64,000 nt of DNA from Strix aluco. Its lineage: Eukaryota > Chordata > Aves > Strigiformes > Strigidae. Below, piece after piece: positions 52,208-56,399 of the stretch (position 1 is its first letter; each line of letters begins with the position of its first letter). The notes under the pieces are model-generated. The model was not told the DNA's origin and did not search any database. It was given only the letters and a program-made list of their open reading frames with translations. Location of the stretch: NCBI RefSeq assembly GCF_031877795.1, contig NC_133938.1, positions 13,052,920 to 13,116,919 of the forward strand, read 5' to 3'. The position numbers and the translations under genes were made by a program.

Positions 52208-55200
52208 ATGGCTCCTGCCTGCCTGCTCGGGGTCTGCAGCCTCCTCTACGCCTGGTCAGTGGTGACGGGACACCCCTGCAGCCTCGATCACCAGGTAGGG
52301 TGGCCAAGGGGGCTCCAGTGTGGGCAGCAGCTGGGGGTGGGCAGGGACACCCCACTCGCGGTCCTGCCAGCACAGCTGGGGTGGCAGCACCGTGTGCTTG
52401 CGGGCAGCAGGCCCTGGCAGGCAGCTCCTGCTCTGCATGGCTTGAGAGACAATGAGCAATGAAAACCTACGGGAGGAAGTGGAGTTAACTGGGGGATGTG
52501 CAGTGCCAGTGGCCACCAGCCACAGGGGTGGTTCACCCACACGTGGAGCCTGGCTGTCCTGCTCCCAGCCCTGCAGCACCCTGTCTCCCAGCCCCACAAC
52601 ACCCCTGCTCCCAGCCTCAGGCTGAACACGTCACATTGTCCAGCCCATTCACCAGAGCACAGCAGGGCTGGCAAAGCCTTGTCTGAGCTGTGGCATTTCT
52701 GACTCTGGGGGTCTCTTGGCTGCAGCCATAACACAGCTGCCCATACGGGGTGCAGGGCGAGCAGCAGCGAAGCACTTTCCTGAGGGGCTCCCAGCCCCCC
52801 ACTCCCTTCTCCAGTGCATGGTGATGCAGTGACTGAAGCCAGGGTCAGGGCAGCTGTGGGGTCAGGACCCCCACACGTCTGTCGGGGAGCAGGAAATAGA
52901 ACTAACCCATCCCACTGGGACAAGCGCCGCAGGCAGTAGTTCAGCTGCACCAGGCAGGAGCCAGGGGAAGCAGGAAAAGTGGCTGTCGCGGACAGATGGC
53001 ACAGGGCAGTGCTGCCCACCCAGCTCTCAGATACTCCCTCAGAAGGCTTGCACTGTTTTCCTCAGTGTCCCCAAGCCCAGCCCTGTCTGAGCTTGAGACA
53101 GGACCTGTGTGGTGCCCACATGGCTCAGCCCCATTATAACCTAGCCCTCAGCAGCCCAGCTTTGTAAGTGCACATCTATTCCTCTAGAAAGCAGAGACAG
53201 CAGGGTCTGATAGATTTAGGTGAACAGGAGGATGAAAGGAGAGGTGATCACATGAGAGGCAAAGAAATGAAAAGGCCAGTTAGCTGGGAACCAGCCAGAC
53301 CTAGAAACACAGGACTATGGACCACAGCAAACTTCCAGCACGGCACCTCTGCCTGGGGGGCCCAAACACAGCATCGAGCAGGAGCCTGTGCCTGTCCAAC
53401 CAAACTTAAACTGCTGACCTGATCTCTGGTAGCTTTAGTGTGGGCAGCTGACCCTCTCCAACATAAAGCCCAAGGAGGAGTAACACATGTTGGGGACTGC
53501 TCCCCAAAACCAGCTTGAATTTGACCACCCAGTTTTTAGGGGAAAAAAACTCTATCCGTGAGGGTTGATTGATCCATCCAGCATGCACGACCGGCCTTTT
53601 GGGACAGTGAATGGTCCCTGGTCTGTTTTGTTTAGTAGCCTCTGCCACTCGCAGTGTATCATCAGAAACAGGGGAGGGCTGGAGGCATGGGTGCAATATC
53701 CTGCACAGGCCCCGAGGAGCAGCTCTTGGCAGGGGTGCCTGGTGCAGGTCCCACTGCTCCTGCCTGCCGCTGCCTGTCTGCCTGCCCTTCCAGCAGGCAG
53801 GGATCTTGCTCACTGCCTTGCCCCCACTGGGAGGACGCCCTTGTGTCACACAAGAGCTCCCTGGGGGCTGGAGGTGGCGATCTGGGGGAGGAAGAGGAAG
53901 GCCCTCTGCAAGCTGACTCTGTATGACAACTGCCCTGTAAGGGAGGACAGGAGAGTGACAACCTGGTCCCTTCACACCCATCTTGTCTGTTTGGGTTCTC
54001 CACGCTCCTTCTTTACTCCTTCAGTTGGCTGCTCAGTCCTGGCTGTCCAGCTCATCTTTCTCCATTTATCCTGGCCCACACCAAACTGGCAACTCATGGT
54101 TTTTTTTAAAGTTCTTTGTGTCTTTGCTTTTTTAAAATCTGCAAGGGTAATTAATTAAGGGGTTTGAACTTCTGGGGAGTCTCAGTCTAGAGACCCTCTC
54201 CAGCACAGAGAGCCTATCTCAGACAGCAGCTCTTTTCCCAGGGATGGGCCGACTGCAATGGGAAGAGCCTCCTGCACGCTCCAAGTTCCCTTCCAAGCAA
54301 CATCACTGGTTTGGACCTCTCCTTCAACTCCTTGGTTGTGCCTCATCATGGGACTCTGTTGATGCATTTCCCTTCCCTGCGGTCCCTCAACCTCTCAAGC
54401 AATGCCCTGCTAGCACTGAGCCCAGCAGTCTTCTCCAACCTCAGGGCACTGCGTTTGCTGGACCTGAGCAGCTGCAGCATCACCTACCTCCACACGGACA
54501 CTTTCAAGGGCTTGGGAAACTTGCAGACACTGCTCCTAAGAAATAACAGTCTGCAAGGGCTTGAGGTCCCTTTCTTCCTGCCGCTGAAGGCTCTTTTCCA
54601 CCTGGACCTGCAGCACAATGCGCTGGTCTCTGTGGACGCTCTGAGCCTGCAGCTGATGGAGGCAGTCCCGCAGGTCCTGCTAGAAGGGAACCCCTGGGTC
54701 TGTGACTGCACCGCGCACCCTCTGCAGCAGTGGCTACAGCGCAGGCAAGGTGAGCGGGCAGGGGTGGCTGGCAGGAGAGGTGTCAGGTGGGAGAAATCCT
54801 GGGTGCAGGGGTCCCGCTCAATCCTTTTGCTCCAACTCCAGGCATGCTCTGAGATGGCTCTCCAGGGACGTCTCCCACCCTGTTGAGGGACAGCGAACCA
54901 AAAGGGGATGTGTCTGTTCCTTGCTTGCAGTTACATATGATACCAAAGACTTCTAGAAATGACAGCAGGATAATTTAGCCACTCTTCTGGGAAAGGGGCT
55001 GCATGTGCTCTTCAGCCCCTAAATCCACCTATATGTATCTACATGGAGTGACCACATTTTCAAGAGCTGCTGAGCACTTGGCAGCTCCTCCATTGGAGCC
55101 AGATCAGCTCCATCCCTCTGAGCTCAGCTCTCAAGCAAGAGCAGCCCTGTGACAGTGGGGTTTCTATTAGTATCCATGAATTTGACATTATCCAGTTAAA

Positions 55201-56399
55201 AGGAACCTGCTAAACAGTCACACACTTGAATGACTCCTTGGTCAGGGAATTTTTTCTTTGGTTGTGCCTTACAATGTGCTGAGGGTGAGTGAGGCTGGAG
55301 GGCAGACCCAGGAGCACCTTGTGATGTGTCCCATCAACCTGGGAGCAAGCAGAGATAGTTTTCTCTAAATTGGGGAGGAGATGGGCAAAGACCCCTGGTC
55401 CCACCTTAGTCGATGTGTCTTCCAGCTGTGCAGGTGACCTGTGCGTTGCCCCCGGGGCTGCAGGGCCGGGAGGTCGCAGGTCTGGATTCCCAGGAGCTGG
55501 GCTGCTGGATGAAGCAGCGGTTTCCTCGGTGGGTCAGCACGGCGCAGCAGATCACAGTGACCCACAACAACAGTAAGTTGTGCAGCTACGGAGGCGTCCG
55601 TAAGGTCTAGCTCACTCTTGCCCTCCGTCATGCCAGAGGGGACCATAGGTGGAGACCCCCTGCTCTGCCTGCAGTCCCAGGGGCTCCAGCTGCCCAGCCG
55701 CCGCTGGTGCAGTGGCTTGGTGGGGAGGGTGGCCACCACCTGGAGGTGTTTTCTGGCTTTGCAACAGAAAAGTTAGCAGATGCCACAAAGCCACACAGCG
55801 CACAGACTCCACAGTGATGGGCACCATTATCAGACAGCAGTCTGGCAGTTTTCCTCGCAGTGTTCACACCCCCTTGGTAGCTAGCTCTTGGTGAAGAGCA
55901 TTTATATTACTCCTAATGAAAGCAATCCAGTGCTGGCTGCACGCTGCAGGCACGCACAGGGCTGGCTGCTGAGGAGCGCTGGGTATGCCACAGGCTGACC
56001 CGCTGTGCCCTGATGTGTCTTTCTTGTGCCGCAGCCACCACAGCACCTGCCGGGAAGGGGGGAAGGAGCTGGCCGTACCTGGTGGGCTTCCTGGTGGCAG
56101 CAATCGGCATCTCTGTCCTGATCGCGCTGGCTGCCAAGTGCAAGCTCTTCCACAAGAACTTTGCCAGCTACCGCCACCGGCCACTACCTGAAACCAGCTC
56201 GATCGGAGGCAGCCCCATGGAGGACGGCAGTGGCTGGAACAGGGGGTCCTCAGGCCGGGGAGACTGCGAGAGACACCCCATGCCCGGTGCTGCTGACCTT
56301 CAAGCTGAGGATGACGACGGCTTCATCGAAGACAACTACATCCAGCCAAGTGAGCAGCTGCCAGAGGAAGAGGAGCGGGGGTCGCACCTCTCCATCTGA
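52208..56399 (+). CDS. C1orf210: LRR-ectodomain type I membrane protein with C1orf210/TEMP tail (368 aa)
   Basis: The coding exons are 52208-52294, 54242-54749, 55426-55572 and 56035-56399, with GT-AG borders and compatible phases 0, 1 and 1. Exon 1 gives a signal peptide (about 1-21) and the first LRRNT cysteine. Exon 2 gives the second LRRNT cysteine, about five leucine-rich repeats and the start of an LRRCT (NPWVCDC). Exon 3 completes the LRRCT cysteines. Exon 4 gives a membrane span (about 262-282) and an 86-residue tail. The tail stretches [10 protein letters not shown] and [13 protein letters not shown], and the span ending IALAAKC, match human C1orf210 (type III endosome membrane protein TEMP) as I recall it. 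Position beside TIE1 and TMEM125 agrees. N-glycosylation sequons occur in the ectodomain. The human protein has only about 113 residues and no LRRs. Ligand and function are unknown. The acidic tail with its tyrosine suggests sorting or signalling, which is inference. Confidence 0.88.

Follow-up and report, generated by a model that had tools for sequence, protein, structure and literature searches.

Mouse TEMP, the product of the gene named C1orf210 in human, is a protein of 111 residues with type III topology and probable N-glycosylation; it localizes to the plasma membrane and to early and recycling endosomes, and the stomach, kidney and intestine express it (PMC3901140). The same paper concludes that its orthologues are mammalian only, that it belongs to no known family and that no relative has a known function, although it reports a stretch of 15 residues that also occurs in Lrrc19 (PMC3901140). 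Here, we describe the corresponding locus of the owl Strix aluco in a window of 64,000 nucleotides, the whole stretch analysed (contig NC_133938.1, positions 13,052,920 to 13,116,919 of the forward strand; all positions below count from its first letter), in which four exons between 52208 and 56399 encode a protein with leucine-rich repeats (LRRs) ahead of a TEMP-type membrane span and tail. We consider it highly probable (roughly 0.87) that this gene is the C1orf210/TEMP orthologue and encodes the ancestral full-length protein—a type I LRR receptor that crosses the membrane once and is the sister of LRRC19—and that the tail-only form of therian mammals was derived from it by loss of the LRRs.

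LRRC19 is described in two papers as a gut epithelial receptor that acts via TRAF2/TRAF6 and NF-kB and interacts with the flagellin of Desulfovibrio vulgaris (PMC4742566, PMC10763354). A 2007 survey of the extracellular LRR proteins of worm, fly, mouse and human places Lrrc19 among its LRR_Only singletons, with the parts SS, LRRNT, 6LRR, LRRCT1 and TM (PMC2235866, as given in Table 1). Among the titles and abstracts listed from the open-access literature on C1orf210 or LRRC19, none states that TEMP lost an LRR ectodomain.

The owl gene and its product

The gene model was obtained by excising four exons from the window by coordinates, joining them and translating the result. The joined exons (87, 508, 147 and 365 bases) give 368 codons followed by TGA, remain in frame across the three joins with phases 0/1/1 and flank introns that all run from GT to AG (3/3); a one-base shift of exon 2, whether at its start or at its end (the two shifts tried), loses the frame. 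The protein is identical to the TEMP database entry of Strix aluco, and the coordinates, joins and length of 368 residues set out in a preliminary description of the locus proved exact. Continuous frames of 333–376 residues also occur on contigs of 1.2–1.8 kb. Six long relatives (P0044, P0242, P0252, P0254, P0268, P0271) come solely from a source labelled ‘lgn’, and their longest contigs measure 1.2–1.8 kb, compared with the 4.2 kb spanned by the owl coding exons. Contigs of this source appear to have been assembled from sequencing reads and would then lend indirect support to the spliced joins.

All four exons lie on the forward strand. Exon 1 (52208..52294) carries the start codon, the signal peptide (residues 1 to ~21) and C24 of the LRRNT, and ends in phase 0 at the donor GTAGGG. 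Past intron 1 (52295..54241), exon 2 (54242..54749) encodes C34 of the LRRNT, the five LRRs and the first half of the LRRCT (C183 and C185), and ends in phase 1. Exon 3 (55426..55572), which follows intron 2 (54750..55425) and likewise ends in phase 1, provides the second half of the LRRCT (C204 and C225), the sequence R-F-P-R at 55518-55529 and a stalk with the start of an N-glycosylation sequon (N246/N247). Finally, exon 4 (56035..56399) contains the end of the stalk, the membrane span (~56070-56144), the cytoplasmic tail with a motif of 14 residues at 56307-56348, and the stop codon. Over its last part, where the short owl model P0162 begins, intron 3 (55573..56034) is open in the exon-4 frame and contains an ATG.

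The protein thus reads signal peptide, LRRNT, five LRRs, LRRCT, single membrane span and tail, i.e. a type I arrangement, in which the signal peptide was called from inspection of the sequence and a predicted N-terminal helix (residues 3-19). Pfam matches the protein to LRR_8 (4.3e-22, in the part encoded by exon 2) and to LRR19-TM (PF15176; 3.2e-11, 43.8 bits at a cut-off of 27), the latter model also recognizing exon 4 alone (5.8e-12). The Pfam LRRCT model reaches 10.6 bits, which is under its cut-off, and this domain was judged by its cysteine pattern and helix. A TIR domain was not found by Pfam.

An AlphaFold2 model built with 44 relatives supports the same order of parts. Mean predicted local distance difference test values lie between 81 and 98 in every ten-residue block of residues 21-220, with an overall mean of 72.6 and a predicted template modelling score of 0.58. 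Strands start at residues 52, 77, 101, 125, 149 and 173, the LRRCT helix covers 185-196 and the membrane helix 260-292; confidence is low for the stalk and most of the tail, the latter being disordered in the model. The ectodomain is confidently modelled as an LRR solenoid. Among solved structures, Foldseek ranks the second LRR domain of Slit2 closest to it (E 1.1e-10), and Slit2, the Nogo receptors, GPIb-alpha, VLRs and LRRC26 share with it the LRRNT-LRR-LRRCT solenoid, although solved structures match the ectodomain only: searched alone against PDB chains, the tail gave no match at E up to 1. The preliminary description had anticipated this architecture, with about five LRRs, as well as cysteine pairs across exons 1-2 and exons 2-3; the cysteines do occupy these positions, and they would presumably form one pair in the LRRNT and two in the LRRCT.

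A probable LRRC19-type receptor ending in a TEMP tail

Mammalian C1orf210/TEMP and the owl protein have in common the span, the tail with its 14-residue motif and the TMEM125 and TIE-type neighbours. The owl tail is closer to TEMP than to LRRC19 (here and below a sequence of human LRRC19 checked solely by its PF15176 score of 234 bits), as expected of an orthologue. Mammalian TEMP, by contrast, has no signal peptide, LRR or LRRCT, and its topology is type III rather than type I (PMC3901140). By the definition used for the mouse protein, the signal-peptide-like N-terminus and LRR ectodomain of the owl product mean that the gene is orthologous while the protein is not a ‘type III’ one.

The relationship to LRRC19 runs from end to end. 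Human LRRC19 and owl TEMP are 29% identical over 353 residues, from LRRNT to tail (E 1e-26 for the pair), with the LRRCT cysteines and the tail in register. Like owl TEMP, LRRC19 consists of signal peptide, LRRNT, LRRs, LRRCT, one span and a tail that ends in a DDDGFIED(N/K)YI motif: its DGFIEDKYIDI stands where owl TEMP has the 14-residue motif, and its DGFIEDKYI corresponds to the ten-residue cytoplasmic motif of TEMP. Human LRRC19 lies on 9p, at a locus different from that of C1orf210. The two proteins differ in the diverged tail between span and motif and in the number of repeats, six being listed for Lrrc19 in the survey table and five being present in the owl (PMC2235866). Just as none was found in the owl protein, a TIR domain is not described for LRRC19 in the work consulted, and ligand binding and TRAF signalling have been published for LRRC19 alone (PMC4742566, PMC10763354). 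An LRR19-TM score above cut-off, the architecture and the end-to-end homology together place owl TEMP in the LRRC19 family. What the preliminary description called an uncharacterised LRR receptor family is hence one with a published innate immune receptor of gut and kidney.

A head joined to a tail is common to both paralogues, TEMP and LRRC19, which makes the therian TEMP without a head the derived state. By analogy with LRRC19 and mouse TEMP, long TEMP would be an epithelial LRR receptor of the LRRC19 type. Its signal peptide would bring the LRR solenoid to the outside of epithelial cells of gut or kidney type, where the solenoid might bind a ligand that, in line with reports on LRRC19, probably comes from microbes or from tissue. 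Inside the cell, the ten-residue cytoplasmic motif would recruit trafficking adaptors and/or TRAF-type signalling proteins and set the cycling between plasma membrane and recycling endosomes, as in mouse TEMP. In therians, the LRR part would have been lost and translation would begin in the stalk, from which we propose that the membrane span acts as a reverse signal anchor; the function of the tail would have been retained and ligand sensing dropped, the tail motif being the part that mammals kept. Tail motifs of TRAF-binding and PDZ type were considered but not counted, such sequences being too short to be informative.

If TEMP is the sister of LRRC19 minus its head, the view of TEMP as a mammal-only protein without relatives changes, as does the listing of Lrrc19 as a singleton, TEMP being the missing sister. 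An orphan human membrane protein would gain both a family and a likely ancestral role, that of an epithelial LRR receptor of gut or kidney type, and the pair would illustrate cleanly that surveys built on human and mouse can overlook homology once a domain has been lost.

Long and short forms across vertebrates

A first search for relatives returned 459 matches, of which the 120 listed come, where a species is named, from birds and one turtle. In a second search, the axolotl tail was scored against proteins of ~332-1059 residues, giving 81 matches among 213 candidates. By precomputed annotation, all 81 contain an LRR family and 80 contain LRR19-TM, the exception being P0274 (20.6 bits, cut-off 27). 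Three turtles, an alligator, 18 named frogs and 9 named teleosts (Megalops, Conger, Scleropages, Paramormyrops, Coilia, Engraulis, Xyrauchen, Misgurnus and Salmo) thus combine LRRs with the TEMP tail, and the species-named among these 81 matches include no mammal, salamander, caecilian or spiny-rayed fish. The preliminary description had held that fish or frog orthologues without LRR exons would speak for a lineage-specific fusion; the named frogs and teleosts all have LRRs.

Conservation extends over the entire protein. The ten-residue tail motif is present in 45/45 aligned long forms. Between the owl and 18 bird or bird-like rows, identity is 77–93% in the LRR block and 61–91% in the cytoplasmic part, which puts the conservation of ectodomain and tail at about the same level. 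A juxtamembrane N-glycosylation sequon, expected from shuffles in 50%, is present in all but one of the 27 forms, long and short, that were chosen (26/27; P0185, a doubtful frog model, lacks it), implying that the stalk has been kept too.

Long bird, turtle, frog and fish proteins are already named TEMP in sequence databases. Other names are in use as well: P0248 of Xenopus laevis is called ‘slit homolog 3 protein’, P0274 of Conger ‘chondroadherin-like’ and P0275 of Salmo salar ‘LRRC19’, and many bird entries among the 120 listed bear the names LRC19 or LRRC19. P0275 was not accepted as LRRC19, since its tail is that of TEMP and it falls in line with the TEMP rows of other fish; its name is probably wrong, likewise those of the bird entries. 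In addition, 36 of the 120 listed models match a pattern of read-in from intron 3 (open exon-4 frame, in-frame ATG), probably an annotation error that has spread over many bird genomes.

Short forms were sought among candidates of ~94-297 residues, which gave 172 matches, 120 of them listed. Among these listed matches, mammalian entries measure 112-119 residues in the six that were read and 111-152 in other named ones, and their span and tail are mostly 38-49% identical to the owl. Outside mammals, tail-only models were found in three caecilians (122-127 residues), two salamanders (131-132) and two spiny-rayed fish (145 and 157), which suggests that the ectodomain was lost several times, provided that these models are complete; gene models alone cannot prove repeated loss because they can miss exons.

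Other short models were not counted as losses. The frog model P0190 (Ranitomeya, 201 residues) has a long counterpart in the same species (P0260), and P0185 (Leptobrachium, 116 residues) is doubtful. The cyprinid-type models P0202 and P0203 are marked partial, and Xyrauchen and Misgurnus, which belong to the same order, have long forms. The short models from birds, crocodiles and turtles (P0155-P0174 and P0177, apart from entries of other groups in that range) were treated as projection artefacts rather than as short isoforms. The check behind this covered two short sauropsid models, those of the owls Bubo (P0161) and Strix occidentalis (P0162), both of which look like artefacts because they start in intron sequence of the window and drop part of exon 4.

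Within mammals, the echidna entry P0208 (220 residues) is intermediate between the long and short forms. By eye, it begins with a signal-like N-terminus and continues, without LRRs, into an LRRCT-like stretch, the span and the tail; its CISPPELRG aligns to the LRRCT of birds (e.g. CASPPELQG). When scored with profiles from 24 sauropsid sequences against 2000 shuffles, it reached 12.5 bits with the exon-3 profile (0/2000 shuffles as high) and 11.5 bits with the LRRCT profile (1/2000). Such a relic implies that mammals once had the ectodomain, of which monotremes may retain the last part. Along with the long forms of frogs and teleosts and the collinear LRRC19, it argues that tail-only therian TEMP is the derived state. 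The ancestral receptor and the derived therian form put forward in the preliminary description are thus upheld, whereas the loss that it placed in the mammalian lineage may have happened elsewhere too. If the echidna model is right, moreover, the loss was not one clean step at the mammalian base, because some ectodomain was kept there.

Several observations weigh against this reconstruction. The whole-ectodomain profile gives the echidna entry 3.9 bits (2/2000 shuffles); neither exon 1 (274/2000) nor the LRRNT (584/2000) rises above shuffles, and the LRR block is absent (885/2000). This entry may represent just one of several isoforms or a compromise made in annotation, a caution raised by the fact that a predicted chicken isoform (X3, P0122, 255 residues) likewise jumps from the start of the LRRNT to the LRRCT while retaining a signal-like start, LRRCT, span and tail; predicted bird isoforms sometimes lack most LRRs in this way. 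Well-matched exon 3 is missing from 58 of the 120 models listed in the first search, some of which are partial or read into the intron. In the frog rows the LRRCT is degenerate, and in the teleost rows its cysteines are gone while LRRNT and LRRs are retained, as if erosion of the head had begun at the C-terminal cap in different lineages. Finally, the ligand, signalling and tissue proposed for birds are guessed from LRRC19 and mouse TEMP.

Other accounts have to be measured against the same data. Had an unrelated LRR gene been joined to a tail-only TEMP in sauropsids, with the short form ancestral, the tail-only models of the caecilians, salamanders and spiny-rayed fish mentioned above would fall into place together with mammals; but LRR-plus-tail proteins in frogs and in teleosts of several orders largely refute such a fusion, and the parts of LRRC19 are arranged in this order too, in keeping with the SS, LRRNT, 6LRR, LRRCT1, TM of the survey table (PMC2235866). 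We therefore regard it as very improbable. Still harder to credit is that annotation misjoined two neighbouring genes, one made of the LRR exons 1-3 and the other of the tail exon 4. The 36 read-in models and the well-matched exon 3 in just 62 of 120 would suit such an error, which was rejected since the end of exon 3 and the start of exon 4 agree in phase, continuous frames of 333–376 residues lie on the short contigs and the parts follow the same order in frogs and teleosts.

Possible, although clearly the less likely alternative, is that most vertebrates make both forms, with a type III isoform arising beside the long receptor through splicing or an internal promoter, and that the short form alone survived in mammals. 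Such coexistence is favoured by the short models of many lineages, among them an Ambystoma entry called isoform X2, as do the in-frame ATG in exon 3 (the M in CWMKQRFPR), another in intron 3 before exon 4, and the chicken isoform X3, which is much like the echidna entry. Conversely, the two short owl models that were checked look like artefacts; Ambystoma itself is absent from the 81 matches of ~332-1059 residues, a search that leaves 298-331 residues outside its range.

More doubtful still is a bolder extension of the favoured descent from an LRR receptor, according to which TEMP was beheaded repeatedly and independently (in therians, caecilians, salamanders and spiny-rayed fish) and the tail-only form is a genetically fixed version of a stub which, rather than the head, has the essential job. 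Its starting point is an R-x-x-R sequence between LRRCT and stalk in birds and frogs, where the ancestral receptor may be cut. Counted within 35 residues before the span, and with five models without a span start set aside from the 62 with well-matched exon 3, it occurs in 54 of 57 listed models (chance 0.10; misses P0089, P0104 and P0117) and in 19 of 20 frogs (chance 0.19); over all bird models the count is 77/125 (with no stalk found in 7/132), lowered by the intron read-in models. Cleavage is opposed by the turtles and alligator, where R-x-x-R appears in 4 of 5 at other positions (chance 0.35), by fish, with 2 of 11 (a dibasic pair being present in 11/11), and by the echidna, whose RPRR lies in an arginine-rich stretch and therefore has a chance of 0.60. 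In light of these counts, furin cleavage stays hypothetical; speculatively, a furin-type cut would leave a stub resembling mammalian TEMP.

Neighbouring genes and further features of the locus

Both genes that flank owl TEMP lie on the reverse strand. Downstream, a TMEM125 coding domain was identified at ~61985-62317 (Pfam PF15109, 1e-49). Upstream, pieces of a TIE-family receptor kinase extend over 37469..43377, comprising an EGF piece at ~43318-43377 (20.6 bits, under cut-off), an fn3 piece at ~39239-39508 and a kinase piece at 37469-37690 whose best PDB match is TIE-2, the angiopoietin-1 receptor. These neighbours fit the human order TMEM125, C1orf210, TIE1. The synteny noted in the preliminary description accordingly stands for TMEM125 and for a TIE-type kinase, which may be either TIE1 or TIE2.

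Shortly after the TEMP stop codon, the presumed 3′ untranslated region contains a nearly pure (AGGAG)n microsatellite of ~50 copies (56518-56769, 95% matches), beyond which an ATTAAA-type signal is visible by eye near 57059.

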